Source of the DNA: Thiothrix subterranea
GTDB lineage: Bacteria > Pseudomonadota > Gammaproteobacteria > Thiotrichales > Thiotrichaceae
DNA: 64,000 nucleotides
Direction of reading: 5' to 3'
NCBI RefSeq assembly: GCF_016772315.1
Contig: NZ_CP053482.1
Coordinates: 2,418,001-2,482,000, forward strand
Part shown: piece by piece, positions 27,324-42,193 of the stretch
How the letters are laid out: each line of letters starts with the position of its first letter
Numbering within the stretch: position 1 is the stretch's first letter
Made by a program: the position numbers and the translations under genes
The notes under the pieces: generated by a model
What the model was told of the DNA's origin: nothing
Database searches by the model: none
Seen by the model: the letters and a program-made list of their open reading frames with translations, nothing else

Positions 27324-27380
27324 GGTAAACAGTATGCCAGAATCGTGAGAATCAAATCTTGTTTATGAGGATGAGTGGGC

Positions 27381-27803
27381 ATGAGTATGAAGAAGACCGG
27401 GCAACGTAAGCCAAGTCAGGCGGGTTTTTCCTTAACCGAATTAATGATCGTGATTGTGATCATCGGAATTTTGTTGGGTTTGGTGTTCAGCAATCTGAAT
27501 GTGATGGGGGATGCGCAAAACCTGAAAGCCAAAAAAGAAGTCGGTGATTTGAAGATTAAGCTGGAAATGTATCGGGCAGATAATGGCACTTTCCCGGCTT
27601 CTGGATCATTGAATGCCTTGGTGAATAATCCGGGGAATGCACCGCGCTGGCGGCAATACATGAAAGAGTTGCCGAAAGACCCGTGGGGCAATGATTACCG
27701 CTACCTGAATCCGGGTACGCACGGTGATGAAATGGAAGTTTACAGCATTGGGCCGGACAAACGCGAAGGCAATGAAGACGATGTGGGTAGCTGGCAGTTA
27801 TAA
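27381..27803 (+). CDS. gspG: type II secretion major pseudopilin GspG
   Basis: 140 residues from ATG 27381 (ATG 27387 also possible; GTG 27375 is poorly placed). The prepilin-peptidase site is QAG-FSLTELMIVIVIIGIL. The C-terminal GspG core has LPKDPWGNDYRYLNPG and YSIGPDKREGNEDDVGSW, including the calcium-site residues. It polymerises into the periplasmic pseudopilus that drives secretion. First of four overlapping pseudopilin genes. Confidence 0.95.
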   Translation: MSMKKTGQRKPSQAGFSLTELMIVIVIIGILLGLVFSNLNVMGDAQNLKAKKEVGDLKIKLEMYRADNGTFPASGSLNALVNNPGNAPRWRQYMKELPKDPWGNDYRYLNPGTHGDEMEVYSIGPDKREGNEDDVGSWQL

Positions 27804-28308
27804 GCACTCGTGCGCTCACCAGCAGGGGTTTTCCTTGCTGGAAATGATGATTGTGATCATGGTCATCGGTATTTTGTATGCCTTGGCGGGGTCAATGTTG
27901 AATTTGTCGATGTCTGACCCATTGAACGAAGAGGTGACTCGCTTACGTGAGCGCGTACTAATGGCGCAGGATGAAAGCATTGTGCGCTCTCAAGCCTTGG
28001 CGTTGGGCTTTGGGGAAACGGGTTACGCTTTTTTTGCGCAAAATGATCAGCTTCAGTGGGAGGCGTTGGATAAAGATGGTTTGCTGAAAGCCCATGCGTG
28101 GAGCGGCGGTTATGAGCAGGTACTGTATTTACAAGGGCAGGCGGTTAGCTTGCCGGATAATGATAACATTCGCCCGCAGGTTTTCATTTTGCCCACCGGG
28201 GAGATGATGCCGTTTGAATGGCATTTGCGTGATAACACCCAACGTGAGCAAATCGTGATGTTCGATAATGTCGGGCGCGAAGTTGCGCGCGCGGCGGAGG
28301 CCAACTGA
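27781..28308 (+). CDS. gspH: type II secretion minor pseudopilin GspH
   Basis: 175 residues from ATG 27781, overlapping gspG by 23 bases; earlier in-frame starts lie deep in gspG. The type IV prepilin site QQG-FSLLEMMIVIMVIGIL is followed by a GspH-like C-terminal domain (LALGFGETGYAFFAQN, QVFILPTGEMMPFEW). Its identity as GspH rests on order and size. Confidence 0.88.
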   Translation: MWVAGSYKHSCAHQQGFSLLEMMIVIMVIGILYALAGSMLNLSMSDPLNEEVTRLRERVLMAQDESIVRSQALALGFGETGYAFFAQNDQLQWEALDKDGLLKAHAWSGGYEQVLYLQGQAVSLPDNDNIRPQVFILPTGEMMPFEWHLRDNTQREQIVMFDNVGREVARAAEAN

Positions 28309-28309
28309 G

Positions 28310-28699
28310 ATGCGGCAGCAAGGTTTTAATTTGATCGAAATTATGTTTGCGTTGCTGTTGCTAGGGTTGGTCATTTCGGTCAGCGTGGAAACCAGTAGCG
28401 GTGATTTTGCCAGTTACCAGCGCATGAAAGACACGACGTTGGCGCGTTGGGTGGCGTTCAACCAGCTTGCGGTGGTGCAAACGAGTAAAGGCTTTCCGGC
28501 GACGGGTAAATCTGAGGGCAAAGCCGATATGGGGCTGGATAAGTGGCAATGGCAGCAGGAAATTTTAGCAACGCCTGACCCTGATTTGCGCAAAGTGAAA
28601 GTAAGCGTGTTCCGCGAAGGGCAGCCGCAACAAATTCTGGCGGTGGAATTGGCTTATGTGGCGAACCCTCAGCCTAAAGTGCGGAGTGTCGGGCAATGA
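28310..28699 (+). CDS. gspI: type II secretion minor pseudopilin GspI
   Basis: 129 residues from ATG 28310, preceded by GGAGG; it begins 1 base after the gspH stop. The prepilin site is QQG-FNLIEIMFALLLLGLV, followed by a short GspI C-terminal domain. It overlaps gspJ by 4 bases (ATGA). Confidence 0.88.
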   Translation: MRQQGFNLIEIMFALLLLGLVISVSVETSSGDFASYQRMKDTTLARWVAFNQLAVVQTSKGFPATGKSEGKADMGLDKWQWQQEILATPDPDLRKVKVSVFREGQPQQILAVELAYVANPQPKVRSVGQ

Positions 28700-29322
28700 G
28701 GTTGCGCAACCGTGGCTTTACGTTGGTGGAATTGATGATTTCATTGGCGATTTTTTCCCTGATGATTTCCTTGGCGTATCAGTCGGTGAATATGTTGCTG
28801 GATGTGGGGCGGCAGGTGGAGCAGCCACAGGCCGAGTTGCAGCAGTTGCAGCGGGCTATGGTGTTTATTGAGCGGGATATGCGCCAGTTGGCGTTGTTGC
28901 GGCCTCAGCAGGAGAGTTTTCAGCCAATCGGTGCACCGAAGCCTAGCAATAGCATTGCTCAGCCGGAAGATATGGGGGTATTGCTGGAGTTTACACGCGG
29001 TGGACACCCGGATGTGGCTTGGCAGTTGCGGGCTTCGGGGCAAATGCGCAGTGGTTTGCAGCGAGTGCGTTATGTGGTGGAGGAAGGTAAGTTATTGCGG
29101 CAAACGTGGAATTTGGTGGATCACGTCGAGCAAGCAGAACCCGTGTCGCTGACCTTGCTGACAGACATAGAAGGTGAGCCACGCTTGCGGTTTCAGGCAG
29201 GAAAAAGCGGCGAGTTTAAGGAAAGCTTGCCAGCAGAACGTTCGCTGTTAACGGCGGTAGAGTTTTCAGTGCAGCACAAGCGCTTCGGGGTGCTGCGGCG
29301 GGTCTTTACTGTGTATTTATAA
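28696..29322 (+). CDS. gspJ: type II secretion minor pseudopilin GspJ
   Basis: 208 residues. The prepilin site RNRG-FTLVELMISLAIFSLM is followed by a GspJ domain (QLQRAMVFIERDMRQLALLRP, GLQRVRYVVEEGKLLRQTW). It forms the pseudopilus tip with GspI and GspK. No gspK follows: the next 169 bases are non-coding and lead into an RND operon, so gspK and the remaining gsp genes must be elsewhere. Confidence 0.9.
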   Translation: MRLRNRGFTLVELMISLAIFSLMISLAYQSVNMLLDVGRQVEQPQAELQQLQRAMVFIERDMRQLALLRPQQESFQPIGAPKPSNSIAQPEDMGVLLEFTRGGHPDVAWQLRASGQMRSGLQRVRYVVEEGKLLRQTWNLVDHVEQAEPVSLTLLTDIEGEPRLRFQAGKSGEFKESLPAERSLLTAVEFSVQHKRFGVLRRVFTVYL

Positions 29323-29491
29323 GAATATACTAATATTCATTCGTGGGTTACTGGAATTCAATGGCGTTAGACGCTATAGTTCCGCCTAGATTATTCAGAG
29401 GGTCTGGAGAGGGGGCGAGTACAGGTAATGTAGTCGGTTGTTTCCTCTTTGCGCCTTCGAGATCGTACCGCTTTGAGGAATAAGACCGCTA

Positions 29492-30640
29492 ATGAGGATA
29501 ACAACAAATACACTGAGGTTGCTCTTGTTGATGCTTAGCATTGTCGGTGAAATGCTGGCGGTTGCGCGAGCTGCCGAAATTGTGCGCGTGGAAGCGGTGA
29601 CGTCGTTGTCTAGCTCGGTCTTGGGGAGTACAGTTATCCCTTATCGCGAGGTCACTTTGTCCGCTCAAGTGCCAGGAGCGGTTAAATTTGTGGCGGGTGA
29701 GGCAGGCTCTGGCTTTAATCAAGGTGACGTGATTGTGCGCATAGATGAGTCGCAATTAACCGCAAAGCGCAATGCGGTGTTGGCGCAAATTGCGATTGCT
29801 CAGGCAACGGTACAAAATTCTCAGGCGCAGTATACCCGTGAGCTAATCTCACCGCGCAGCAAAGACATTGGTGCGATGCCGGGTTTTGGTTTGCCTGCCA
29901 TGTTTGATATGACGATGGTGCGCCCGTTTGCCGATTCCATGATGGGTAATTATGATTCGGATATGGGACGTTATTCGGATTTAATGAGCAGTGCCACTGG
30001 CGTTTCGCAGGCGCAAAGCAATTTGCAGCAAGCGATGTCGCAGTTGCAAGAAATTGATGCGGCCTTGGGTGATGCCAAGTCCGTTGCGCCGTTTGAAGGG
30101 ATTGTGCTGGAAAAGCTGGTCGAAGTTGGCGATACGGTGCAGCCGGGGCAGCCCTTAATTAAGTTTGGGTATGTTAAATACAAGCGTTTGCAGGCGGATG
30201 TGCCTTCTGGCTTGGTGGGTAATTTGCGGGTGGGGATGATTATTCCTGCTAAACTAGACAGTAAGACCACGCTTATGGTCAAGCTCTCGCAAATTTATCC
30301 GGTTGCCGACCCCAGCCGCCATACGGTGACGGTAAAATTTGATTTGCCTGTTGATGCAGTAGCAGCGCCGGGTATGTATGCTGAGGTATACTTGCCGGAA
30401 ACGCAAACGGGTGACGCTAAAATTGTGGTTATTCCCAAAACAGCCTTGCTCCGGGGGCGTAGCCTGCCAAGCGTATTGGTTGTGAAAAATGATAATACCT
30501 CCGAATTGCGCTTGGTAAGACTGGGTGCTGAACAAGAAGATGGTAAGGTAGAAGTGGTTTCCGGTTTAAGTGCAGACGAGCGGGTGGTGGATAAACCACC
30601 GGCTACGGCCTCCTCCGGTTGGATGCCACCGGTAGAATAA
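29492..30640 (+). CDS. RND efflux periplasmic adaptor (HlyD/AcrA family)
   Basis: 382 residues. A signal peptide (ends ARA-AEI) is followed by a lipoyl-like half motif (PGAVKFVAGEAGSGFNQGDVI), a coiled-coil hairpin (about 90-185) containing an unusual Met/Asp-rich loop near 128-160 (GFGLPAMFDMTMVRPF), the second lipoyl half (APFEGIVLEKLVEVGDTVQ) and the beta-barrel domain. It would link the downstream RND permease to an outer-membrane channel; none is encoded nearby. It starts the 29.5-40.1 kb co-directional run. A GAGGA site precedes the ATG. Confidence 0.88.
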   Translation: MRITTNTLRLLLLMLSIVGEMLAVARAAEIVRVEAVTSLSSSVLGSTVIPYREVTLSAQVPGAVKFVAGEAGSGFNQGDVIVRIDESQLTAKRNAVLAQIAIAQATVQNSQAQYTRELISPRSKDIGAMPGFGLPAMFDMTMVRPFADSMMGNYDSDMGRYSDLMSSATGVSQAQSNLQQAMSQLQEIDAALGDAKSVAPFEGIVLEKLVEVGDTVQPGQPLIKFGYVKYKRLQADVPSGLVGNLRVGMIIPAKLDSKTTLMVKLSQIYPVADPSRHTVTVKFDLPVDAVAAPGMYAEVYLPETQTGDAKIVVIPKTALLRGRSLPSVLVVKNDNTSELRLVRLGAEQEDGKVEVVSGLSADERVVDKPPATASSGWMPPVE

Positions 30641-30678
30641 AGATGAATATGATTTCCCCGCTAGGAATGTAACTAATT

Positions 30679-33600
30679 ATGAATGATTCTCCGCACAATG
30701 CAGCAGCACCTCAGCACCCACACCACAATTTGGGTATGGCGGGGGCAATGGCTAAAGCCTTTATTACCTCGCCGCTCTCGTTACTGTTGCTGTTGGCCTT
30801 CTTTGCCGTAGGTGTGTTGGGGATGTGGGTAACGCCGCGTCAAGAAGATCCGCAGATTTCGGTGCCGATGGTGGATATTTTCGTGCGTTACCCCGGTGCA
30901 TCAGCGCAGGAAGTCGAAAACCTCATCTCCCGCCCCTTAGAAAGCATTATGTCGGAAATGACAGGTGTCGATCATGTCTATTCCTATTCGGCGCGTGAGC
31001 AGTCGATGGTGACAGTGCAGTTCATTGTGGGTGAGGAACTGGAATCGTCACTGGTCAAACTGTATGACAAATTGGCGTCTAATAAAGACCGTATGCCATT
31101 AGGAGTGCCAGAGCCGCTAGTGAAGCCCAAAGGTGCGGATGATGTGCCATTGGTGACGTTAACTTTGTGGTCGAATCAGGTCGATGATGCCAACTTGCGC
31201 TTGGTGGCCTTGGATGTGCTGCAAAGTTTGCGTGAAGTTGAAAATACCAGCCAAAGCTTCATTGTGGATGGTCGCCATGAAGAGCTTAAAGTGGAAATTC
31301 TGCCGGAGCGTCTGGCAACCTTCGGGGTGTCATTGGAACAGGTGGCGAATGCTATCCGCATGGCAAATTCCGAACGCAATACCGGGTCAGTTGAGCCCGA
31401 TGAGCGTGTCTTTAAAGTTTACAGTGGCGCCTTCTTGAGTTCTGCCGAAGACGTCAAGCGTTTGATGGTGGCGATGATTGAGGGTCGACCGGTATACGTG
31501 CGTGATGTGGCGACAGTCACTGAAGAGCCGAGTGATGCCGGGCGTTCTGTCGGGTATTACACCGGCACGGCTTTGGTCGATGGCGTAGAAAAGGCGGATA
31601 ACGCACCCGCTGTAACCGTGGCGATTGCAAAGAAACACGGCACGAATGGGGTGAATGTCGCCGAGGCGGTATTAGCGAAGTTGGAAGCGTTAAAAGGCCG
31701 CATTATTCCTGACAATGTGAATGTTGAAGTAACCCGAAACTACGGTGAAACTGCCAAGGCGAAAGTTAATGAGCTGATTTTCAAACTCTTCGTCGCGACT
31801 GGCATTGTGACGGTTTTGGTGTGGTTCTTCTTGGGTTTCCGTGCTGCAGGCGTGGTATTGATCGTTATTCCTGCGGTTATTACCACCACCGTATTCTCCG
31901 CATGGCTCATGGGCATGACCATTGACCGGGTGAGCTTATTTGCGTTGATTTTCTCCATCGGAATTCTGGTGGATGACGCGATTGTGGTGGTGGAAAATAT
32001 TTACCGCCGCTGGTTGATGATCGAAGATACCGATGTTGAAACAGCAGTCGATGCGGTACGCGAAGTGGGCAACCCAACGATTTTAGCAACCGGTACGGTA
32101 ATTGCGGCCTTGTTACCGATGGGCTTTGTGAGCGGCATGATGGGACCTTATATGTTACCTATCCCGGTCTTGGGTTCGGTAGCGATGGTGATCTCTCTGT
32201 TTGCGGCTTTTGCGTTTACGCCTTGGTTGACCAATCGCTTTAAACCTTCCTTGAAGAGTTTGCGGGAAGCGGCAGAGAAGGAACACAAACAAGCAGCGCG
32301 TATGGAAAAGTTGTTCCGTGGGCTGATTGTGCCGTTGGTGACCAATAAAAAGAAAGGTTACGCCTTCTTGCTGGCTATTATTATGGTGTTTTTCGCCTTC
32401 ATGTTGTTGTTCTACCCGATGCAAGCGGTGCGGGTGAAAATGTTGCCACTGGATAATAAGCCAGAGTTCAACGTGGTCTTAAACATGCCGGAAGGTACTG
32501 CATTACCTGTGACGGCAAATTTAGTGCATACCATGGCTACTAAATTGAAAGAAATTCCCGAAGTCACTGCCCTGCAAACGTACACGGGTACAGCCTCACC
32601 GTTTAACTTTAACGGTTTGGTGCGCCATTATTACCTGCGTCAGCAGTCTTGGCAGGCCGATATTCAAGTGCAATTGACCGATAAGCACGACCGTAAGCGC
32701 ACCAGTCACGAGATTGCGGTGGAAGCCCGTGCCTTGTTGCAACCTTTGCTGAAAGCGACGGGCGGTAAATTACAAGTGGTGGAAATGCCGCCTGGCCCGC
32801 CGGTATTGCAATCTGTTGTGGCGGAGATTTACGGGCCGGATGCCAATACCCGCCGTCAAGTCGCGGCTGATTTGACCAAGCTGTTTGAGCAGGCGGAAAA
32901 TTTGGATGACGTGGATAATCTGATGGAAGAGGATCATGAAATCCTGCGTTTCATCGTGGATTCCGACAAAGCCCAACGCAATGGCATTACCGCTGAAACG
33001 GTCAACCGCACGCTGGAAATGGCGATGGGCGGCTTTATTCTGGGTGATATTAAGAAAAATGCCTTGATTGACCCAACCCGTATTGTGATGCAGGTGCCGT
33101 TGAGTGCGCGTTCACAGATTTACCGTTTGTCCCAGTTGCCGGTGACGAATCATATTGGGCAGTTTGTGCCGTTGCATGAATTGGGTACGTTTGTGTTTGA
33201 TAAACAAGACAAGCCGATTTACCGCAAAGATTTACGCGCCGTCGAATACGTGACCGCTGAAACCGTGGGGCGTTTAGCGGCACCGGTATACGGTCAAGGA
33301 CAGGTGGAAACACTGCTGGCGGAATTTAATAATGGCGAAGGTTATCGTTCACCCGATGGCACGTTGTTGCTGGATGAGGCATACTGGTTAAAATCGCCCC
33401 AAGGCGTTGAAAGCAAGTCGGCGTTTGAATGGGGTGGTGAATGGACGGTAACGTGGGAAACGTTCCGGGATATGGGTATTGCATTTGCAGCAGCACTGGT
33501 GTTGATTTACATGCTGATTGTGGCGCAATTTGGTAACTTTACCTTGCCTGCGATTATTATGGCACCGATTCCCTTGACGTTGATCGGGATTGTGCCGGGT

Positions 33601-34377
33601 CACTGGCTGATGGATGCGGAATTTACCGCAACCTCAATGATCGGTTTCATTGCGTTGGCGGGAATTATTGTGCGTAACTCCATTTTATTAGTGGATTTTG
33701 CCCGCGAAACGGTACTCAGTGGTGAGACCGTGCTGGAATCAGTCATTCGTTCCTGTGAAGCGCGGACACGTCCGATTATCATTACGGCGTTGGCTTTATT
33801 TGGTGGCTCAATGGTGATTTTGTCAGACCCCATTTTCCAAGGCATGGCGGTATCACTGATTTTCGGTGGGGCAGTTGCCACGCTACTCACGTTGCTGATT
33901 ATCCCATTGGGTTGTATTAGCGCGGGTGATTCTTTAAGCGGATTGCCGCCGAGTGGTGGCAATGGCGGTGGTTCCCACAGTGGTCATGCCCCAGCCGGTA
34001 ACACGCAAGCGGTGAAGTCTGGTAAAAGTGTTGGGACAGTTGCGAAGAATACGCTGGGTTCTATCGGTATGTACCTATTGTCCCTATTGGGTCATTTGAT
34101 AATGGGCATCATCGGTATTTTTGGCGCATTGCGAAAGTTGTTACAAAAACCCAAACCCAGCCAGGTGGCAAAACCGCAGGCGGTGCGTCAAGCGCCTAAG
34201 CAGCAGACTGTCACGGAAACGCCCAGTGTTGTTGCAGCGCCAGAGACGGTAATCACTGAGCCTGAGCTTGTCAGCACTGCGCTACCACAAGATGAGATGC
34301 CTTTGGGTTCAGCCGAACCTCAAGAGCGCAAGAAATCCTCCGCTAGACGGGGCATAAAACTCAAAACGGATATTTAA
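30679..34377 (+). CDS. RND efflux permease with extra C-terminal extension
   Basis: 1232 residues against about 1030-1060 for most RND permeases. The RND core includes VRYPGASAQEVENLISRPLE, VDDAIVVVENIYRRW in membrane segment 4 and TGTVIAALLPMGFVSG. After the last core membrane segment (about 1080) come a Gly/Ser linker (GLPPSGGNGGGSHSG), a further hydrophobic stretch at about 1128-1150 (YLLSLLGHLIMGIIGIFGAL) and a Pro/Ala/Glu-rich then basic tail. The extension is unusual for RND pumps. The substrate cannot be inferred. It follows the adaptor by 38 bases. Confidence 0.9.
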   Translation: MNDSPHNAAAPQHPHHNLGMAGAMAKAFITSPLSLLLLLAFFAVGVLGMWVTPRQEDPQISVPMVDIFVRYPGASAQEVENLISRPLESIMSEMTGVDHVYSYSAREQSMVTVQFIVGEELESSLVKLYDKLASNKDRMPLGVPEPLVKPKGADDVPLVTLTLWSNQVDDANLRLVALDVLQSLREVENTSQSFIVDGRHEELKVEILPERLATFGVSLEQVANAIRMANSERNTGSVEPDERVFKVYSGAFLSSAEDVKRLMVAMIEGRPVYVRDVATVTEEPSDAGRSVGYYTGTALVDGVEKADNAPAVTVAIAKKHGTNGVNVAEAVLAKLEALKGRIIPDNVNVEVTRNYGETAKAKVNELIFKLFVATGIVTVLVWFFLGFRAAGVVLIVIPAVITTTVFSAWLMGMTIDRVSLFALIFSIGILVDDAIVVVENIYRRWLMIEDTDVETAVDAVREVGNPTILATGTVIAALLPMGFVSGMMGPYMLPIPVLGSVAMVISLFAAFAFTPWLTNRFKPSLKSLREAAEKEHKQAARMEKLFRGLIVPLVTNKKKGYAFLLAIIMVFFAFMLLFYPMQAVRVKMLPLDNKPEFNVVLNMPEGTALPVTANLVHTMATKLKEIPEVTALQTYTGTASPFNFNGLVRHYYLRQQSWQADIQVQLTDKHDRKRTSHEIAVEARALLQPLLKATGGKLQVVEMPPGPPVLQSVVAEIYGPDANTRRQVAADLTKLFEQAENLDDVDNLMEEDHEILRFIVDSDKAQRNGITAETVNRTLEMAMGGFILGDIKKNALIDPTRIVMQVPLSARSQIYRLSQLPVTNHIGQFVPLHELGTFVFDKQDKPIYRKDLRAVEYVTAETVGRLAAPVYGQGQVETLLAEFNNGEGYRSPDGTLLLDEAYWLKSPQGVESKSAFEWGGEWTVTWETFRDMGIAFAAALVLIYMLIVAQFGNFTLPAIIMAPIPLTLIGIVPGHWLMDAEFTATSMIGFIALAGIIVRNSILLVDFARETVLSGETVLESVIRSCEARTRPIIITALALFGGSMVILSDPIFQGMAVSLIFGGAVATLLTLLIIPLGCISAGDSLSGLPPSGGNGGGSHSGHAPAGNTQAVKSGKSVGTVAKNTLGSIGMYLLSLLGHLIMGIIGIFGALRKLLQKPKPSQVAKPQAVRQAPKQQTVTETPSVVAAPETVITEPELVSTALPQDEMPLGSAEPQERKKSSARRGIKLKTDI

Positions 34378-34395
34378 TCTGGAAGGAAGACTAGC

Positions 34396-35100
34396 ATGAA
34401 GATATTTAACAATAAGCAACGGGCTACCGCTGTTGCCGCAGTAACTTCTGCGGCGGTATTTCTGTTGAGTGCCAACGTATGGGCAGAAGCGGCAGACTTA
34501 CCACCGCCACCGCCAGGCCCTTTTATGACCGAGGGTTCTGAGCAGATGGCCAGTTCTGCGAGTGCACCGGCTGCATCTGCGGCACCTGCTGCGCCGGTTG
34601 CCCCAGAAGCACCGGCGGTTTCGACTGCACCGGCCGCCCCGGTTGTACCGGCAGCTCCGACACAACCGGCTGCTCCTGCGGTATCAGAGGTAAAAGCCCC
34701 CGAAGCTCCGGCAGCACCTGCGGTTCCAGAGGTAAAAGCCCCGGAAGCACCAGCAGCTCCTGCGGTATCAGAGGTAAAAGCTCCTGAAGTTCCGGCAGCA
34801 CCTGCGGTAGCTACTGTACCTGCTGCGCCAGCACAACCTGAAGTACCTGCTGTTCCAGCGACTCCGGCACAACCGGCAGCACCTGAAGTATCGGCTGCAC
34901 CCACGCCGCCACCGATGCCTCTGCCGCCCGGTTCTTACTACTACCTGTACGCGATTCCAATGCCACAAGGTGTACCCGGTTACGGCAATGGCGCGGGTAC
35001 TCCACCTGCACCAGAGATGATGCCGCCTGTGCAAGCAATTCCAATGCCGCAAGGTGGTGGCTACGTAATGCCACCACAGCAACCACCTGTGCAGCAATAA
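34396..35100 (+). CDS. secreted Pro/Ala-rich repeat protein of unknown function
   Basis: 234 residues. A signal peptide (ends VWA-EAA) is followed almost entirely by low-complexity sequence: PPPPPG, long Ala/Pro/Val stretches, three tandem 14-residue units of the APAVSEVKAPEAPA type, and a Pro/Gly/Met/Gln-rich tail with YYYLYAIPMPQG and a second AIPMPQGGGY. No catalytic domain. It begins 18 bases after the permease stop with a good GGAAGGA site, so it is probably cotranscribed. It may be an extended periplasmic spacer or wall-spanning element (inference). Confidence 0.7.
   Translation: MKIFNNKQRATAVAAVTSAAVFLLSANVWAEAADLPPPPPGPFMTEGSEQMASSASAPAASAAPAAPVAPEAPAVSTAPAAPVVPAAPTQPAAPAVSEVKAPEAPAAPAVPEVKAPEAPAAPAVSEVKAPEVPAAPAVATVPAAPAQPEVPAVPATPAQPAAPEVSAAPTPPPMPLPPGSYYYLYAIPMPQGVPGYGNGAGTPPAPEMMPPVQAIPMPQGGGYVMPPQQPPVQQ
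34672..34797 (+). repeat. three tandem 42-bp coding repeats
   Basis: Units at 34672-34713, 34714-34755 and 34756-34797 each encode a 14-residue Ala-Pro-Ala-Val-x-Glu-Val-Lys-Ala-Pro-Glu-x-Pro-Ala element. Third positions vary, so the repeat is kept at the protein level. Confidence 0.8.
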
Positions 35101-35111
35101 TATACACCCGT

Positions 35112-35133
35112 AGCCCGCCCATGAGGGCGGGTT
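35112..35133 (+). terminator. GC-rich hairpin between the Pro/Ala protein and the ParA-like gene
   Basis: A 9-bp stem AGCCCGCCC / GGGCGGGTT with a 4-base loop lies 12 bases after the stop. No T tract follows, so it may be an attenuator or an mRNA-stability element rather than a full terminator. Confidence 0.4.
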
Positions 35134-35163
35134 GCCGATGCAACCAAACGAAGAGAGCCTTGA

Positions 35164-35787
35164 ATGATTACGCTGATTGGCAACCTCAAGGGGGGAACCG
35201 GTAAAAGCACCATAACGTTTAACCTAGCGTTGTGGGTGGCTACCCGTCACAACAAGCATGTGGTGGTGTATGACCTTGACCCTCAAGGAACCACAGCCGA
35301 TGCCTTTGAAATTCGTCAGGAAGAAGGTTTTTTGCCTGCGATTGCGCCGCTGACATCCGTCAGTGATTTGGGTGCGCAAGACAATACCTCTGAAGTATTG
35401 GTGGACATGGGGCTGGCTGATATGGCAGCGGTTGAAATGGCGATCAGCAAAGCAGAACGTATTGTGGTGCCGGTTGCACCGAGTCAGGCAGATATTTGGT
35501 CTACGCAACGTTTTCTGAAAATGATCGAGGATATTCGTCAGGGACGCCCTGTTGAAATACTCGGCGTTATCAATCGGGCGGATACCCATCACGCCGTTCG
35601 CGAGACATCAGAAGCGGCTGAAGCGATGCAAATGTTGCCCGGATTGCGTTTGCTGGAGCAGCGTCTATACATGCGTACTACGTATCGGCGCTCGTTTAGT
35701 GAAGGTTTGGCAGTGTTTGAAATGGAGCCGCGTTCTAAAGCGGCGGTAGAACTGGATGCATTGGGACGTGCTTTGTATCCGGTATAA
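35164..35787 (+). CDS. ParA/MinD-family ATPase
   Basis: 207 residues. The deviant Walker A box KGGTGKST is at 9-16 and Walker A-prime is VVVYDLDPQGTTADAF. A switch II-like LVDMGLADMAAVEMAI and VVPVAPSQADIWSTQRF follow. The DxPPG form of many ParA proteins is replaced by DMGLAD. No ParB or parS-like gene is adjacent, and it lies among membrane-protein genes, so it more likely positions a membrane or envelope assembly than segregates DNA (inference). It lies 63 bases after the Pro/Ala-rich gene. Confidence 0.88.
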   Translation: MITLIGNLKGGTGKSTITFNLALWVATRHNKHVVVYDLDPQGTTADAFEIRQEEGFLPAIAPLTSVSDLGAQDNTSEVLVDMGLADMAAVEMAISKAERIVVPVAPSQADIWSTQRFLKMIEDIRQGRPVEILGVINRADTHHAVRETSEAAEAMQMLPGLRLLEQRLYMRTTYRRSFSEGLAVFEMEPRSKAAVELDALGRALYPV

Positions 35788-35827
35788 ACATTATTTTTAA
35801 TAAATCTGGGGTTTTAAGGAGATTCAG

Positions 35828-36625
35828 ATGCATATTTTACGTTGGTTAATGAAACATCCAATTTTGCTGGCATGGTTGCTGGCGATTGTGGCTATCCTGC
35901 TGAACTTCAGCATGGGCACTAAGTCAGTTGAACACGGTAACGACGTTGCCGCTGGGCATGAACAGCCTGCTGCGGAACAGCAAGCGGTAGCACCTGCGCC
36001 AGTGGTTGCAGAACAGCCAGTTCAAGCAGTAGCCCCAGCGCCAGTGGCTGAACCCGCACCGATGGTTGCAGAACAGCCCGTTCAAGCAGCGGCTCCAGCA
36101 CCAGTGGCTGAACCCGCACCAGTGGTTGCAGAACAGCCAGTTCAAGCGGCAGCGCCAGTGGCTGAACCCGCACCAGTGGTTGCAGAACAGCCCGTTCAAG
36201 CGGCAGCGCCAGCGGCTGAACCCGCACCAGTAGTGGCGGAGCAGCCAGTTCAAGCGGCAGCACCTGCACCAGTGGTTGCAGAACAGCCCGTTCAAGCAGC
36301 GGCTTCAGCGCCTGTTGCGGCTAATAATCCAGCGGATCTGTTGCGTGCGGCACGTGAAGCGTATTGGGCAAATGAATTGGATAGAGCTGTAGGTCTATAC
36401 AGTGATTTGCTCAAGCAAACGCCTGATTCATTGGAATATAAAGGTGAGTTGGCGAACGTGTATTGGAAGCAAGGCAATGCTCAGCAAGCCGCGACTCTGT
36501 TTGCTGAAGTAGCGCCCAAGCTGGCTGAACAAGGTCGTGTTACTGAAGCATTAAACATGAAGTTGTATGTGGATATGGTAAACCCTGAGCTTGCGAAGCA
36601 AATTGATGCTGCCCTGAAAAAATAA
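35828..36625 (+). CDS. single-pass membrane protein with Pro/Ala repeat stalk and TPR-like domain
   Basis: 265 residues. One N-terminal membrane segment (about 9-28, ILLAWLLAIVAILLNF) is followed by a low-complexity stalk with six copies of P-(V/M)-V-A-E-Q-P-V-Q-A (about 58-158). The C-terminal helical domain (about 165-265) has TPR-like pairs (AREAYWANELDRAVGLYSDL, ANVYWKQGNAQQAATLF). It probably displays a protein-binding TPR module in the periplasm on a flexible stalk. A strong AAGGAG site precedes the ATG. No named family recognised. Confidence 0.75.
   Translation: MHILRWLMKHPILLAWLLAIVAILLNFSMGTKSVEHGNDVAAGHEQPAAEQQAVAPAPVVAEQPVQAVAPAPVAEPAPMVAEQPVQAAAPAPVAEPAPVVAEQPVQAAAPVAEPAPVVAEQPVQAAAPAAEPAPVVAEQPVQAAAPAPVVAEQPVQAAASAPVAANNPADLLRAAREAYWANELDRAVGLYSDLLKQTPDSLEYKGELANVYWKQGNAQQAATLFAEVAPKLAEQGRVTEALNMKLYVDMVNPELAKQIDAALKK
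35999..36300 (+). repeat. six-copy coding repeat (Pro/Ala/Val/Glu/Gln stalk)
   Basis: Six imperfect copies encoding P-V-V-A-E-Q-P-V-Q-A, spaced 42 to 60 bases apart by Ala/Pro linkers. Near-identical DNA blocks suggest expansion by slippage or unequal recombination, so copy number may vary between strains. Confidence 0.85.
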
Positions 36626-36656
36626 AGCAGGGTAGCGGCGATGTATCAGTAGTTGT

Positions 36657-36686
36657 GCAGGATTAAGTTGCAATAACTTGACCTGC
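36657..36686. repeat. hairpin in the gap before the coiled-coil gene
   Basis: GCAGG-att-AAGTT-5-AACTT-ga-CCTGC forms a two-part stem. An overlapping alternative pairing joins GTAGCGGC (36632-36639) with GCCGCTAC (36685-36692). The 194-base gap 36626-36819 that holds it has no credible gene. Such mutually exclusive stems can act in attenuation or as a processing site. Confidence 0.45.
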
Positions 36687-36819
36687 CGCTACTGTTACAT
36701 GGCAAGTAAAAGAATAAGATTGAATACCAAAGATGTTCGGGAGACAAAATTCATGAAGAACGCATTGGATAGGGCGTGATACGCATTCACAGTAGCCGAG
36801 GTGTTATCTAAGGAGATAG

Positions 36820-37653
36820 ATGGCACGTCGAAATCAGGAGTTAGGTATGAAAACGAATGAAAAATCCGCAGGGATTAACGACATTGAAAGCAATTTACAC
36901 GATGTCGAAGACGAATTGCAGGATTTTGAGGAGCGCCAGGTTAATGTAACCCGAACCTTGCAAATGATTGTCTACCCCGCCATGGTAGCTTTCATTATTC
37001 TTTCCGCCTATGGCTTCTATTTGGTGCAATCTTTAACCACGGATGTCCATCATCTCACCTCAACCATTGCGAATATGCACAATTCGGTTGATACCAATAT
37101 GACAAAAATGACGGGTTCTATTGAGTCGATGAATTCCCAAATGGGGAGTTTAGTGAATTCAACCGGTCAAATGACCAACAATATTGTTGGCATGAATAGC
37201 AGCACCCAAGACATGGCAGGCAACATCCAGCAGATGAATGCTTCGACCCAAAATATGGCTGTTTCCACGTACAATATGCAGCGCGATATGTGGAGCATGA
37301 ATAAAAATATCTCCGGGCCGATGAAAATGTTTAACAAATTCAGCCCATTCGGTAATGACACCACCTCGCCTTATGTTGTACCGCCGCCAGCGGTCGCCAC
37401 CCCTTATTATAATTACTACACTACCCCTGCCGGTACGGTTGCGCAAGGCGTAGCGGTTCAGCCACAAGCCGTGCAACCACCTGCTCCCACTGCTGCCACT
37501 ATCGAAGTGCAGCCTGCTACGAATGCGGTGCAACCAGTAGTGGAAATCCCTGTGACTCAACCGCCGTCGAATGACTCGACAACTGCAAAAGATGGTCACA
37601 GTTCGCTGATAACGGAAGATGAAAAATTCGCCTCCTTAGAGGTTAAAGGATAA
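36820..37653 (+). CDS. single-pass membrane protein with Met/Asn-rich coiled coil and Pro-rich tail
   Basis: 277 residues from ATG 36820, preceded by AAGGAG at short spacing; ATG 36847 with AGGAG at better spacing is a real alternative. An acidic cytoplasmic N-terminus (DVEDELQDFEERQVN) is followed by a membrane segment at about 50-70 (PAMVAFIILSAYGFYLV). A long Met/Asn/Ser/Thr-rich heptad-like coiled coil follows (about 75-168, GNIQQMNASTQNMAVST), then a Pro/Val/Gln-rich tail. The helix resembles chemoreceptor-type coiled coils but no signalling tip was seen. It ends 2 bases before the dynamin-like gene. Confidence 0.75.
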   Translation: MARRNQELGMKTNEKSAGINDIESNLHDVEDELQDFEERQVNVTRTLQMIVYPAMVAFIILSAYGFYLVQSLTTDVHHLTSTIANMHNSVDTNMTKMTGSIESMNSQMGSLVNSTGQMTNNIVGMNSSTQDMAGNIQQMNASTQNMAVSTYNMQRDMWSMNKNISGPMKMFNKFSPFGNDTTSPYVVPPPAVATPYYNYYTTPAGTVAQGVAVQPQAVQPPAPTAATIEVQPATNAVQPVVEIPVTQPPSNDSTTAKDGHSSLITEDEKFASLEVKG

Positions 37654-37655
37654 CT

Positions 37656-39101
37656 ATGACACCAGCCAAGCGCATGGAGCAACGCCTGAAACGGTTGCAG
37701 GAACACCTGAAACGTGAAAATCCGGTGTTAGTCGAGGCAGTCAACCAGTACCGCGAACTGGATGCTGTTGCTCAAAAGCTTGGTTTGTTACATGGCGGGG
37801 AATCTTACGCGACGCAGATTTCGTGGTGGCCGATGATTTCGGTGCTGGGGACTTTTTCAGCGGGTAAATCCAGTTTCATCAATACCTTTTTGGACATGGA
37901 TCTGCAACGCACCGGCAATCAGGCGGTGGATGATCGGTTCACCGTGATTACTTTTAGCCCGGATAACCAGGTGCGGACTTTGCCCGGTTTGGCTTTGGAT
38001 GGCGACCCGCGCTTCCCCTTTTACCAAATCAGTGAAGACATTGAACACGTTTCCAAAGGTGAAGGCGCGAAGATTGATAGCTATCTTCAGATGAAAGTTG
38101 CCCCCAGTGAAAAGCTGCGTGGCAAAATTTTGATTGATTCACCGGGGTTTGATGCTGATGAGCAACGCAAAGCCACCCTGAGAATCACTGACCACATCAT
38201 TGAGTTGTCCGATTTGGTGATGGTGTTTTTTGACGCCCGCCACCCAGAACCGGGCGCGATGCAAGATACACTGGAACATTTGGTCAAAGGCGCGATGCGT
38301 CGCAATGACAGCAGCAAATTCCTGTTTATTTTGAATCAAATTGATACCTCAGCGCGTGAAGACAACCTTGAAGACATCGTATCGGCTTGGCAAAAAGCCT
38401 TGGTACAGCAAGGGCTTTCTGCCGGTAGTTTCCATATTTTATTCAACGACAAATTGGCTGTACCCGTCGCCAATGAGAATGTCTGGGCACGTTACGTGGC
38501 GAAGCGCGATGCCGATTACCAGCGCATTATGGCGCGTGTGAACGGGGTGAATATTGAACGTGTTTACCGCATTGTGGGGGCGATGGAATCCCAAGCCAAC
38601 GCGATTGAACAGCAAGCTGTACCGCGCATTCGCGAGGCGTTACAACGTTGGCGCAAACAAGTATTGGCAGCGGATGCGCTGGTGTTTGGCTTATTAGCCG
38701 TGGCGTTAGTGGCGATGAGCATTGAGTTTGGCTATTGGGAAGGGTTGCTATTCAATCCGCCTTGGCTGGCAGCGTTTGCGGGCAACCTGTGGGCAACTAT
38801 CGGCGTTTTAGCGGTGATTGCTGGATTGGCTTTAGGACTGCACTATTGGATTCGTCAGCGTTTGGCAAAGCGCATCGCGGCAACCCTTAGTAAGAGCGAA
38901 ACTTATGGCAATCTGTCAGCCGCTTTCCTGAAAAGTACCCCTTTCTGGCGGAGTATTTTCCAATCATCGCCAGCAGGTTGGGGTGGTAGAACGCGGCGAC
39001 GGTTGGATACTATTCGTCACGCCACTGACCGTTTTGTGCAGCACTTGAATGACCGTTTTACCAGCCCTTCCGGTGAAAATCAGAAACCTAAGTCTGCTTA
39101 G
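37656..39101 (+). CDS. dynamin-family GTPase with C-terminal membrane segments
   Basis: 481 residues. GTPase motifs: G1 GTFSAGKSS (about 65-73), G2 Thr in DDRFTVITF, G3 DSPG (about 161), G4 NQID (about 227). A helical region follows, then two hydrophobic segments (about 340-357 ALVFGLLAVALVAMSIEF, and 378-400) and a basic C-terminus. This layout fits bacterial dynamin/EHD-like proteins, which remodel or tether membranes. It starts 2 bases after the coiled-coil gene, so the two are probably translated together. Its 3' end overlaps apbE. Confidence 0.85.
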   Translation: MTPAKRMEQRLKRLQEHLKRENPVLVEAVNQYRELDAVAQKLGLLHGGESYATQISWWPMISVLGTFSAGKSSFINTFLDMDLQRTGNQAVDDRFTVITFSPDNQVRTLPGLALDGDPRFPFYQISEDIEHVSKGEGAKIDSYLQMKVAPSEKLRGKILIDSPGFDADEQRKATLRITDHIIELSDLVMVFFDARHPEPGAMQDTLEHLVKGAMRRNDSSKFLFILNQIDTSAREDNLEDIVSAWQKALVQQGLSAGSFHILFNDKLAVPVANENVWARYVAKRDADYQRIMARVNGVNIERVYRIVGAMESQANAIEQQAVPRIREALQRWRKQVLAADALVFGLLAVALVAMSIEFGYWEGLLFNPPWLAAFAGNLWATIGVLAVIAGLALGLHYWIRQRLAKRIAATLSKSETYGNLSAAFLKSTPFWRSIFQSSPAGWGGRTRRRLDTIRHATDRFVQHLNDRFTSPSGENQKPKSA

Positions 39102-40104
39102 AGCGCTATGCCTAAGCGTATTGCTATTGCTTGCGGCATGTGAGCAACGTAGCCCTGCATGGTATCTGGAGGGAATGCAGGGCACGGCACTGTGGCACGT
39201 CACTCTCACGCATCCGCCCGCTACCCTCAATCAGGCTGAATTACAGGCGGGCTTAAATCAGACTTTCGCACAAACTAACCAATGGTTGGCAACGTGGGAT
39301 GAAACCTCGGTATTGTCGCAATTTAACCGTTATCAAGGAACGGACTGGTTTGCCGTTGCCCCAGAATTGGCGGAGTTGGTTGAGCTAACGTTGCAACTCA
39401 GTCAGCAAAGTAACGGCGTATACGATGTAACCATCGGGCCGTTGATCAAATTATGGGGATTTAATTCGCACACCGGTGTAACAGCCGTGCCTGAGCAGAC
39501 GGCTATTGATGCTGCGCGAGCAAAAGTGGGCTATCAAAAATTGCAAGTACGTCTTGAGCCACCTGCCTTACGCAAGTCGCAAGCGGATATTCTGGTAAAT
39601 CTTGCTTCAGTAGCGGACGGCTTCGCGGCTGATCAAGCAGGGCGCTACCTTGAGGCGTTGGGCGTGCGTGATTACATGGTGGAAATTGCGGGAGAAGTAC
39701 GCACCCGTGGCTTGAGTCCGCGTGGGGATGCCTGGCACATTGCGATTGAAAAGCCGGTGGAAGAGGGGCGGGTGATTCAGCAGGGTGTGAATTTGCAAGA
39801 GGCGGGTTTGGCGACTTCTGGTGATTATCGCAACTTTTTTGTCGAGGGTGGCAAACGCTACTCGCATACCGTGAATCCGGTAACAGGCTCTCCGGTGACG
39901 CATAATCTTGCATCGGTATCGGTAGTGGCGGCGGATGCAACGTTGGCAGACGCTTATGCGACATTGTTAATGGCCTTGGGCGAACAGCAGGGCAAAACAT
40001 TTGCTGACACACACGGCATTAATGCTTATTTTATTTGGCGAACTGACGAAGGGTTTGAAACAGCCGATACGGTGGGTTTTCGGCAGGTATTGAGTAAAAA
40101 GTAG
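39049..40104 (+). CDS. apbE: FAD:protein FMN transferase ApbE, lipoprotein
   Basis: 351 residues. The lipoprotein signal is LCLSVLLLLAACEQ. ApbE features: MQGTALWHVTL, SQFNRY, YDVTIGPLIKLWGF, VNLASVADGFAADQ and the metal-site region LADAYATLLMALG. It covalently attaches FMN to Ser/Thr of membrane flavoproteins. It overlaps the dynamin-like gene by 53 bases (GTG 39073 would reduce this to 29). No flavinylation target (NqrB/C, RnfG) is nearby. It ends the co-directional run; a terminator follows. Confidence 0.92.
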   Translation: MTVLPALPVKIRNLSLLRALCLSVLLLLAACEQRSPAWYLEGMQGTALWHVTLTHPPATLNQAELQAGLNQTFAQTNQWLATWDETSVLSQFNRYQGTDWFAVAPELAELVELTLQLSQQSNGVYDVTIGPLIKLWGFNSHTGVTAVPEQTAIDAARAKVGYQKLQVRLEPPALRKSQADILVNLASVADGFAADQAGRYLEALGVRDYMVEIAGEVRTRGLSPRGDAWHIAIEKPVEEGRVIQQGVNLQEAGLATSGDYRNFFVEGGKRYSHTVNPVTGSPVTHNLASVSVVAADATLADAYATLLMALGEQQGKTFADTHGINAYFIWRTDEGFETADTVGFRQVLSKK

Positions 40105-40223
40105 CAAGATCACTCAAATAACTCAATTATTTTAATCAATAGCTTTGCCTGATTTTTGGCGACTGTTTTGTTTTTGATCAATCATTATCTTATTGTTTTT
40201 AATTGATATTTAATCTGGTGTGT

Positions 40224-40255
40224 ATCGCTGCGATGAAAATGTGCCAGCGATTTTT
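40224..40255 (+). terminator. rho-independent terminator after apbE
   Basis: Stem ATCGCTG / CAGCGAT (40224-40230 with 40245-40251) around a 14-base loop, followed directly by a T run. It lies 120 bases after the apbE stop and probably ends the transcript of the 29.5-40.1 kb run. The rest of 40105-40335 is AT-rich with no gene. Confidence 0.7.
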
Positions 40256-40335
40256 CTGGGCTGTGCTATAACCTTTTTTAGCCTGAATGATTATGGCTGA
40301 AATTTCTTTGTTTAGAATATATTAGGATAATAGTT

Positions 40336-41139
40336 ATGCCAGAAGTTTTTGCTCCCAAAGAAATCCCAGTAATTAAAAAAAGTGGCCTGGTGTTGGCGAT
40401 GGTTTTGTGTGCATCCCTACTGAGTGCGTGTGATTGTGACGGCGATTGTGATGCAAGCAGTGCAAATAATGCGGTTAGCCCTACCGTTCCTGCGCCTACG
40501 CCTGTTGATCCTCCAGTGGTTACACCACCCGTTACACCGGTAGTACCGCCAGCCGCCGCCAAATGTGCTGATCCCCGTTTCTGCAAGTTTGATAGCACCG
40601 GTTCTTTGCTGGATGACTCTGCAACATCGTGGTCATGTGTGCAAGACAAGCTGCTTGGTAACTTCTGGGAAGTCAAAACTGACGATGCTGGTTTGCGTGA
40701 TAAGGACTGGACTTATGCGAAAACAGGTGCAGCCGGTGCGTGCGGTGACAAATTAACGGCATGTTCGCCTGATGCTTATGTTGCAGCAGTGAATGCAGCG
40801 GCAGCTCCTCCTTGCGGCACTGCCCGGACTTGCCGTTTGCCCACGCATCCAGAATTGATTTATCTGAGCTTTCCTGACGCATTCTTAACACCTGTTGTTG
40901 CGGGTGTGCCAACCACTGCTGGCAAAGTGACAAGCACGGCTACGGGTTATATGCCACCGGCTGCTTTCTTCCCTGATATTGTGGCTGATGGTTTCTACTT
41001 TAACTCTGGTGATGCACGCCAAGTTGCTTACGGTGTTTCAATTCCCGCTGGCAGCAGCGTTGATGCGATTAGTTTATTGGGAATGGCTCCGGCGGTTGGG
41101 TCAGATCTCGCTGGTCACATTCGCTTGATTTGTGAATAA
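40336..41139 (+). CDS. DUF1566 lipoprotein (first of a tandem pair)
   Basis: 267 residues. The lipobox is LLSACDCD, followed by a Thr/Pro/Val-rich linker (PPVVTPPVTPVVPP). The DUF1566 (Lcl-like) domain has NFWEVKTDDAGLRDKDWTY, a Cys-rich stretch (CGDKLTACSPDAYVAAVN), TCRLPTHPELIYL and the terminal GHIRLICE. DUF1566 occurs in surface lipoproteins and adhesins of aquatic bacteria; function is unknown. Several Cys could form disulfides. A TAGGA site precedes the ATG. Confidence 0.8.
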   Translation: MPEVFAPKEIPVIKKSGLVLAMVLCASLLSACDCDGDCDASSANNAVSPTVPAPTPVDPPVVTPPVTPVVPPAAAKCADPRFCKFDSTGSLLDDSATSWSCVQDKLLGNFWEVKTDDAGLRDKDWTYAKTGAAGACGDKLTACSPDAYVAAVNAAAAPPCGTARTCRLPTHPELIYLSFPDAFLTPVVAGVPTTAGKVTSTATGYMPPAAFFPDIVADGFYFNSGDARQVAYGVSIPAGSSVDAISLLGMAPAVGSDLAGHIRLICE

Positions 41140-41153
41140 TATGCTTTAAGTAA

Positions 41154-41177
41154 GGGCGAAGGGGCTTCCCTTCGCTC
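41154..41177. terminator. hairpin between the two DUF1566 genes
   Basis: A 10-bp stem (GGGCGAAGGG / CCCTTCGCTC, one G-T) with a 4-base loop 15 bases after the first DUF1566 stop. No T run follows. Confidence 0.45.
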
Positions 41178-41323
41178 TACATGTTGTCGCCCTGTCCACC
41201 ACTTATCATAAAAATTATTACGCATATATCAAAAAAATCTGCTTTTCTTCTATACTATGCTATAAATATTATTGTTATCTATTAAATGTAACTCATCGAC
41301 TAATCATCTTATAGGGCAGGATA

Positions 41324-42193
41324 ATGACTAAGCTAACAACAGTACAATCTAACGTTAATTTTTATAAGAAAAGTGGGCTTTTCTTGGCAGTCGCACTTTC
41401 CGCTTCTCTACTGACTGCTTGTGGCGGCGGCGGTGGCACGGCGGCAACGGCTGATACAATACCGATTACAACTACTCCAACAACACCAGTTGTAACTACT
41501 CCAACAACACCAGTTGTAACTACTCCTGTTACGACTCCCCCTACAACGCCGATTACGACTACTCCCACAACGCCTGCGGCGAAAACATTTACTAAGCTAA
41601 ATCTCACAGGTGCTGCTTACGTGGCAGATGGCGTTCAAACGATCGGTTGTGTTCAGGACTCTCAAACCAAGAAGTTCTGGGAAGTAAAAACCAATGCTGC
41701 TGATGTAGCAAAATCTGATTTCCGTGATGTCGATTACGGTTACTTCTGGGGTGTTAATGTCGGCTCCACCGCTGGTACGCCTGCCATTTCCAATGCGACT
41801 GTAGCGACAAGTGCATGTTCGGGTGTGGGTTCCGCATTGACCAAGTGTAATACAGACGCTTATGTCAAGGCTGTGAATGCGATGAATACTGGCAAAGGCT
41901 TGTGTAACAAAACAACTTGGCGCTTACCTACATCGGCTGAATTGTTAGGATTGCTGGATACTAGCAAGACCACTGCACCTTATATTTACAGTGATTTGGG
42001 CAGTACTGCATTCGATGGTAGCGATACCGATGGTCGTCCGTTTGTGTATGCATATTGGTCTGCTACCGCAGTTGCTGGGGCGCCGTCGCAACGCGAAGCG
42101 GTAAGCTTCTCTAATAAATTGGCAAACGGTCAAATTAAAGCGCATAACATGGTTGATCAGATCAATGACCACATCCGTCTGATCGCTGATTAA
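41324..42193 (+). CDS. DUF1566 lipoprotein (second of a tandem pair)
   Basis: 289 residues. The lipobox is LLTACGGGGG, followed by a repetitive Thr/Pro/Val linker (TTPTTPVVTTPTTPVVTTP). The DUF1566 domain has KKFWEVKTNAADV, GYFWGVNVGS, TTWRLPTSAELLGLLD, YAYWSAT and the final DHIRLIAD. It shares layout and motifs with the gene at 40336 but has fewer Cys. The AT-rich leader includes TATAAAT. Its stop overlaps the stop of the convergent feoC. Confidence 0.82.
   Translation: MTKLTTVQSNVNFYKKSGLFLAVALSASLLTACGGGGGTAATADTIPITTTPTTPVVTTPTTPVVTTPVTTPPTTPITTTPTTPAAKTFTKLNLTGAAYVADGVQTIGCVQDSQTKKFWEVKTNAADVAKSDFRDVDYGYFWGVNVGSTAGTPAISNATVATSACSGVGSALTKCNTDAYVKAVNAMNTGKGLCNKTTWRLPTSAELLGLLDTSKTTAPYIYSDLGSTAFDGSDTDGRPFVYAYWSATAVAGAPSQREAVSFSNKLANGQIKAHNMVDQINDHIRLIAD

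Follow-up and report, generated by a model that had tools for sequence, protein, structure and literature searches.

The operon and the permease tail

The window analysed here is the whole 64,000-nucleotide stretch of Thiothrix subterranea DNA (contig NZ_CP053482.1), which corresponds to C1:2418001-2482000 of a host genome of 4.08 Mb in four contigs. It carries a run of genes for an RND pump, a ParA-type ATPase, TPR and coiled-coil proteins and a dynamin-like GTPase, in the order mfp, rnd, pa, parA, tpr, cc and dyn, followed by apbE. A first-pass annotation had placed these eight open reading frames (ORFs) on one strand, and all eight were recovered where it had put them, on the plus strand. 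From mfp to dyn the intergenic gaps are 38, 18, 63, 40, 194 and 2 bases, and dyn overlaps apbE by 53 bases. The short gaps or overlaps described for the run are thus found at most junctions (2-63 bases), the exception being the 194 bases between tpr and cc. A terminator claimed at the end of the run was not supported: 10 terminator-like sites were counted on both strands of positions 29200-41400 versus 15.1 (standard deviation 3.7) in shuffled sequence, and the sole site listed past apbE (40145-40162) has five pairs.

The adaptor gene mfp (29492..30640, +) encodes a 382-residue protein with a signal-like N-terminus and matches to RND_mfp (TIGR01730, 7.7e-40) and HlyD_D23 (1.3e-10), and stands upstream of rnd in the fetched loci. 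The permease gene rnd (30679..34377, +) encodes 1232 residues with a match to ACR_tran (4.3e-138) over a core of approximately residues 24-1080. Adaptor and ACR_tran permease together identify an RND pump. The closest solved chain to the permease was 6vej, a probable RND efflux transporter, and an Asp-Asp pair (D432-D433), which we take to serve the proton relay, is invariant in the permease alignment.

Beyond the end of the RND core near residue 1080, the permease continues to residue 1232 through a C-terminal extension that the first-pass annotation had missed. This comprises an extra hydrophobic segment behind the last RND helix (residues 1133-1151; 34075..34131, +; hydropathy 2.19 over 19 residues), a variable, low-complexity linker (residues 1152-1222; 34132..34344, +) and a terminal tag, RRGIKLK (residues 1223-1229; 34345..34365, +), the protein ending RRGIKLKTDI. 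The linker is unalignable; in the tag, R1223, R1224, G1225, I1226, L1228 and K1229 are nearly invariant, and the consensus at the permease end reads RRGI(K/R/Q)LK. Among 56 distinct tails, the linker measured 29-228 residues with a net charge of -9 to +40 (mean +13), its start being uncertain in several tails where the chosen hydrophobic window was weak or fell inside the linker. Most of the 56 tagged homologues have a hydrophobic segment comparable to that of the window's permease; in several it was weak or wrongly picked.

Beyond the host family, a contig scan returned at least 556 relatives of the GTPase. The best 80 were kept, a selection by similarity to the query in which Thiothrix, Thiofilum, Cocleimonas, Sedimenticola, Thiodiazotropha, Lamprocystis and Chromatiales bins are represented. 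The tag was found at 41 of the 46 permease loci among these 80. Three of the remainder run off the contig, one (L174) has its tag behind a frameshift and one (L120, Thiofilum flexile) has none. The tail of L120 is the same as that of L084 from genome G017, which is without a close ParA.

The parA gene (35164..35787, +) encodes a 207-residue protein with CbiA (2.3e-14) and AAA_31 over cut-off and without a hydrophobic stretch. It is a ParA-type ATPase with a deviant Walker A motif, KGGTGKS in the window, and KGG-GKST is invariant in the alignment. The NCBIfam model ParA_partition scored 119.6 bits, below its cut-off of 180 bits. Among solved chains the protein is closest to the plasmid-partition ATPase ParF (4dzz), with a match of nearly full length. 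No ParB-, ParG- or McdB-type adaptor family was matched among the eight ORFs in Pfam or NCBIfam.

The tag and ParA across the Gammaproteobacteria

The same 369 gammaproteobacterial genomes (the class sample) were searched for the GTPase, dsrA, ParA and the permease, which were found in 89, 118, 65 and 74 genomes, respectively. Permease scores were bimodal and the cut-off was set at 1400 bits. Two permease candidates were scored per genome, so that absences may be over-counted, and six ParA-positive genomes were without a permease in this search. A tally of 111 of 116 genomes from another scoring, with five candidates per genome, mixes tagged, untagged and sister-subfamily permeases and was set aside. 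Tails of the ParA-positive genomes were tagged in 48 cases, untagged in 5 and unreadable in 6; for ParA-negative genomes the corresponding numbers were 1, 13 and 1 (Fisher 4.3e-9 by genome, uncorrected for phylogeny). Of the five untagged, ParA-positive genomes, one has the tag out of frame (G091), two end in the variants RKGIRLK (G165) and RRGIRA (G242), one has a broken frame (G333) and one is unexplained (G188). The sole tagged genome without ParA, G122, has a completeness of 88%, and about a kilobase of contig remains beyond its permease match. Tails of matches with internal stops (G252 C7, G253 C23, G239 and G333) were at first read unreliably; on full re-reading G253 and G239 proved untagged, and G252 C7 and G333 retain the first, unreliable reading. 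A second permease above 1400 bits was present in ten ParA-positive genomes and lacked the tag pattern in all ten, that of G118 ending RRGIRA and the reading for G252 being doubtful.

A FastTree phylogeny of permease cores was built with 91 of 102 ORFs after removal of near-identical sequences, from loci that we had chosen. Untagged paralogues stand apart as a clade (support 0.906), which includes second permeases of ParA-positive genomes as well as all permeases of this kind that were found in six ParA-negative genomes. Since these six of the 13 untagged, ParA-negative genomes show paralogue-clade permeases only, it is the remaining seven that bear the argument for co-loss. Within the tagged clade, the untagged permeases are those of Thiofilum (support 0.964), G175 (0.998) and five of the six members of one clade (1.0), all of them ParA-negative. 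The tag was therefore lost at least three times within the tagged clade, and parsimony gives five changes on the whole tree. Among fragments of the ParA-positive exceptions only that of G091 could be placed informatively, nearest to tagged permeases by a small margin, those of G188 and G333 being too short for placement. An untagged permease of the paralogue clade is kept by three dsrA-positive genomes of 1.4-1.6 Mb (G143, G260 and G358; loci L388, L389 and L391), in which ParA and the GTPase were not found.

We read this joint loss of tag and ParA as functional coupling of the two. The coupling needs no gene proximity: G118 and G318 have parA on a different contig from the tagged permease, which is itself located deep within a long contig. 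From sequence comparison, a conserved tag that is lost together with ParA suggests a pump that is placed in the cell as plasmids and organelles are.

Gene neighbourhood, encoded proteins and sulfur oxidation

The gene set around the permease is conserved. Across the host family, wherever contigs are long enough, the genes run gspG-H-I-J, mfp, rnd, (secreted protein), parA, tpr, cc, dyn. The GTPase was present in 38 of 57 related genomes, that is in 36/36 of the host family, counting the genome of the window, and 2/21 others, and ParA orthologues above 200 bits in 30 of the 36 family genomes (all except G017, G021, G022, G026, G032 and G035). On the stretches of G021, G026 and G032 (genus g7) and of G035, the gsp genes, TPR and GTPase are kept and no mfp, rnd, parA or cc was seen. 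At the best 80 GTPase loci, parA was found in 50, rnd in 46, mfp in 46, cc in 51 and tpr in 40, and as many contigs are short these absences mean little. The combination of dyn, parA and rnd occurs on one stretch at 40 of the 80, with dyn co-directional at 24 and divergent at 16, and rnd and parA share a strand at all 40. Of 13 stretches of the Lamprocystis group, all have parA downstream of rnd and co-directional with it, and 12 have dyn divergent, upstream of mfp.

In the class sample, a same-strand parA no more than 6 kb downstream of rnd was found in 36 of the 59 genomes that have both permease and ParA. These 36 represent 23 families, and their parA lies 77 to 4888 bases past the permease match. 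The set is complete in G050 but split, with parA-tpr-cc on L105 and mfp-rnd-dyn on L104. Chance clustering of the genes is ruled out by this synteny; homologues scattered without synteny, the outcome that would have spoken against a machine, were not seen.

The last of the eight ORFs, apbE (39049..40104, +; ApbE 2.3e-77), is a downstream neighbour. It follows dyn in all 15 other stretches of the genus and in 3 of the 20 from other genera of the family, some of which are cut by contig ends. With so few other genera having apbE there, it was rejected as an operon member; neither apbE nor the claimed terminator is part of the conserved set.

Three proteins of the set are predicted to lie outside the cytoplasm or to face away from it. 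The slot between rnd and parA is variable. In the window it holds pa (34396..35100, +), encoding a secreted, low-complexity Pro/Ala-rich protein with a signal-like N-terminus, and in other orders it holds other signal-bearing ORFs rich in Pro, Tyr and Gly. ORFs that occupy or adjoin this slot at L147, L367, L370, L373 and L374 have at least three aromatic-x-F-R-P/G/E/Q motifs. The tpr product (35828..36625, +; TPR_19 4.6e-6) has a single N-terminal hydrophobic stretch, an Ala/Pro-rich part and a C-terminal TPR region, and is probably periplasmic. The cc product (36820..37653, +) consists of a short N-terminal part, one hydrophobic helix and a long coiled coil; its alignment contains a conserved helix, VYPxxxAFxxLxxxGFxL, and the protein is probably periplasmic as well. 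Of the families assigned at first pass, adaptor, permease, ParA, TPR, Dynamin_N and ApbE were all matched. The Pro/Ala-rich and coiled-coil proteins matched no Pfam or NCBIfam family over threshold, the latter giving sub-threshold matches only.

The dyn gene (37656..39101, +) encodes a 481-residue protein with Dynamin_N at 1.3e-13 (51.7 bits, cut-off 27). Its G domain, the only part recognised by sequence, is closest among solved chains to EHD4 (1.2e-6). Two hydrophobic helices follow at residues 336-354 and 378-396, an arrangement that we take to resemble mitofusin-type GTPases. Among the 89 GTPase genomes of the class sample, G283 gave a weak match (282 bits). A phylum sample of 279 genomes gave 49 GTPase matches, 46 of them outside the class, where orthologues scored 578-698 bits; the basic role of the GTPase is therefore wider than the operon. 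A GTPase specific to the module or to sulfur oxidation was ruled out by its spread over 89 of 369 genomes, by dsrA in 4 of 24 GTPase-only genomes and by the matches outside the class. Thus the proposal that the eight genes form one unit did not survive, since apbE is peripheral and the GTPase is encoded in many genomes that have neither pump nor ParA. The host genome encodes other Dynamin_N proteins, two of which (C1:2763078-2763635 and 2765884-2766456, in frames of 785 and 825 residues) lie close together.

A link to periplasmic sulfur had been called speculative at first pass. For the pump and ParA it is now supported by association, as opposed to demonstrated function. In the class sample dsrA was found in 63 of 74 permease genomes versus 55 of 295 others (phylogeny uncorrected) and in 54 of 65 ParA genomes; of the 118 dsrA assignments, 112 exceeded the curated cut-off and 6 were partial matches below it. 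Of the 32 families of the sample in which ParA was found, 28 have at least one ParA genome that is dsrA-positive. Eleven permease genomes were dsrA-negative, and soxB exceeded its curated cut-off in 8 of the 9 tested (G272 and G350 were outside the test) and in 0 of 14 control genomes, 5 of which gave a weak model signal.

Among the operon proteins tested, a match to the Pfam family SGP (PF17228) was found in G114 only, in an operon that lacks ParA (L309:9764-10294, -; 26.8 bits, cut-off 26.7); no NCBIfam model matched this protein. In the same operon an MlaC-like gene follows dyn (L309:5088-5684). No SGP-family protein was identified in the window operon, the Pro/Ala-rich protein having no Pfam or NCBIfam match. 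Matches resembling SGP in the host genome are at C1:2123113-2123415, over cut-off with its neighbours in the frame, and at 2060630-2060938, below it. The sulfur globule protein SgpD localises to sulfur globules (Kuempel et al. 2023, PMC10386293). In that paper sgpD is reported to adjoin the gene of a hydrophobic/amphiphilic exporter, which could not be confirmed as the module permease, and to be a separate, dispensable transcription unit. A proline-spacing pattern derived from the paper had no match in the fetched loci, seven further stretches of G463 (L356-L362) included, and SgpD as the protein of the pa slot is conjecture.

At the flanks of the window operon, a divergent rhomboid-family gene and the pseudopilin genes gspG-H-I-J (together 26724-29322) precede mfp, outside the coordinates of the first-pass annotation; their linkage to the operon holds within the host family. 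The gsp genes themselves occupy 27375..29322 (+; Pfam T2SSG, GspH, T2SSI and T2SSJ), and no other plus-strand ORF of 80 residues was listed between gspJ and mfp. Downstream, two similar lipoprotein-like genes stand in tandem at 40336-42193, the second with an Lcl_C domain, followed on the opposite strand by feoC-feoB, an arrangement shared by only some of the genus stretches. Some Chromatiales-type loci encode a DUF302 protein beside parA (L363:4901-5473, -; the domain was tested for L363 only), and ORFs resembling it by eye lie at L364:13096-13671 (+) and L374:4595-5170 (-). On the far side of cc, loci of this type have a 5'-nucleotidase gene (PF06189; the ORF tested was L366:5155-6063).

A candidate ParA-positioned exporter

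We regard as evenly poised the proposal that this is the operon of a trans-envelope exporter which ParA positions in sulfur-oxidising bacteria. Permease and adaptor would form an RND pump whose permease tail reaches the cytoplasm as a flexible tether, with its tip, RRGI[KRQ]LK, docking on the ParF-like ParA. The RND fold is expected to leave the permease C-terminus in the cytoplasm. Docking of the tag would probably stimulate the ParA ATPase, and nucleoid-bound ParA may spread or partition the pump complexes, a direction of positioning that we infer. The TPR, coiled-coil and low-complexity secreted proteins would build the periplasmic side of the assembly, and the GTPase may shape or stabilise the inner membrane at pump sites. 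The most likely setting would be the storage of sulfur in the periplasm or the handling of the hydrophobic intermediates that it involves. The spatially organised trans-envelope machine envisaged at first pass thereby gains comparative support from synteny in 23 families, from co-occurrence at split loci (G050) and from the co-loss of ParA and tag. Short basic stretches are the usual means by which partners bind ParA/MinD ATPases (PMC12204374); that of McdB is N-terminal.

Several observations weigh against this exporter. The partners described in PMC12204374 act through their N-terminus, and the tag here is C-terminal. The extra hydrophobic segment could cross the membrane as a thirteenth helix, with the tag then periplasmic, and the positive-inside bias for a cytoplasmic tail is mild (4.6 Lys/Arg after the segment versus 2.8 before). 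G188 has ParA and an unexplained untagged permease, and the tree holds the untagged permeases of ParA-negative genomes and not the five untagged ones of ParA-positive genomes. Thiofilum, G114 and G212 keep the permease, TPR, coiled-coil and GTPase genes without ParA, which is therefore dispensable. G391 has permease and ParA, and neither dsrA nor soxB was found in it. SUP05 bacteria store periplasmic sulfur and are reported to be without dynamin (PMC6509183), and the host SGP-like matches lie elsewhere in the genome; both argue against a necessary role of the module in globules.

A more specific version, in which the genes form a partition apparatus for periplasmic sulfur inclusions, we consider unlikely. 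Here pump complexes, held by their tail tags, would be moved along the nucleoid by ParA, the pump together with its coiled-coil, TPR and low-complexity partners would mark or feed the deposit across the inner membrane, and the two-helix GTPase would shape an inner-membrane pocket holding it, such that storage sites are spaced and inherited.

The contact between ParA and tag is a prediction from sequence, and the tag may instead bind nucleoid DNA with the help of a Lys-rich linker, the membrane surface or another cytoplasmic protein, with ParA acting in the same pathway without direct contact. Many linkers are indeed rich in Lys, Pro and Ala with a positive mean charge, but individual charges range from negative to strongly positive while the tag is near-invariant, and loss of the tag follows loss of ParA; we hold this alternative to be rather improbable. 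Division of the locus into two modules, one of pump and ParA for export and positioning and the other of TPR and GTPase with an independent role in membrane maintenance, would account for the four family stretches (L088, L093, L099 and L102) that keep gsp genes, TPR and GTPase with no mfp, rnd, parA or cc seen. It would also fit the lack of dsrA enrichment in GTPase-only genomes and the occurrence of the GTPase outside the class. The GTPase is nevertheless found in 60 of 74 permease genomes, and split or divergent arrangements still preserve the neighbourhood; this division, too, appears unlikely.

An ordinary efflux operon, in which the pump exports toxic compounds of sulfidic habitats and its neighbours are hitchhikers, is in keeping with the closest solved permease and with the existence of untagged paralogues. 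Hitchhiking, however, leaves unexplained both a conserved tail tag that is lost with ParA and the co-occurrence at split loci, and we think this explanation very improbable.

A literature search, with most subscription journals outside it, found no paper on the module, on the combination of dynamin-like protein, ParA and RND pump or on the positioning of efflux pumps by a ParA-like protein, and a looser search showed no title on the subject among those listed; for sulfur globules it returned none with ParA and, with dynamin, the SUP05 paper only (PMC6509183). If the proposed exporter is correct, a membrane transporter would itself be ParA cargo by virtue of a short tail tag, and ParA positioning would extend from soluble complexes, plasmids and microcompartments to trans-envelope machines. 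A partner would be predicted for this ParA, next to which no protein recognised as ParB-type is encoded. Furthermore, a concrete gene set and a deletable sequence tag would become available for the spacing and inheritance of periplasmic sulfur deposits.

Comparison with known systems places the module between several of them. Like the tripartite pumps AcrB, MexB and TriC, it has an adaptor and a permease with a full RND core and an invariant Asp-Asp pair. Unlike them, the permease has a C-terminal extension of hydrophobic segment, linker and tag, and its gene has ParA, TPR, coiled-coil and GTPase neighbours; no gene for a TolC-type outer-membrane channel lies among the eight ORFs, the rest of the genome not having been searched for one. 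The GTPase shares with dynamin-like and EHD NTPases a Dynamin_N G domain with hydrophobic helices behind it, but has approximately 480 residues, two helices and a short C-terminal part, and its membrane remodelling is putative. The sulfur globule proteins SgpA-D of Allochromatium vinosum are likewise secreted, low-complexity proteins, and an SGP protein occurs in the ParA-less operon of G114, whereas the Pro/Ala-rich protein of the window does not match SGP. The resemblance to ParA/MinD systems that position cargo, such as McdA/McdB of carboxysomes and plasmid ParF/ParG, lies in a short, ParF-like ATPase with a deviant Walker A motif and in a conserved short basic sequence at the tip of a flexible, putative partner, here a motif lost with the ATPase. 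In contrast to the separate, soluble adaptors of the ParB, ParG or McdB type, the proposed partner is an integral RND permease with a C-terminal tag. McdB and the permease tail thus share one design, a flexible arm with a conserved basic tip, at opposite ends of the protein.

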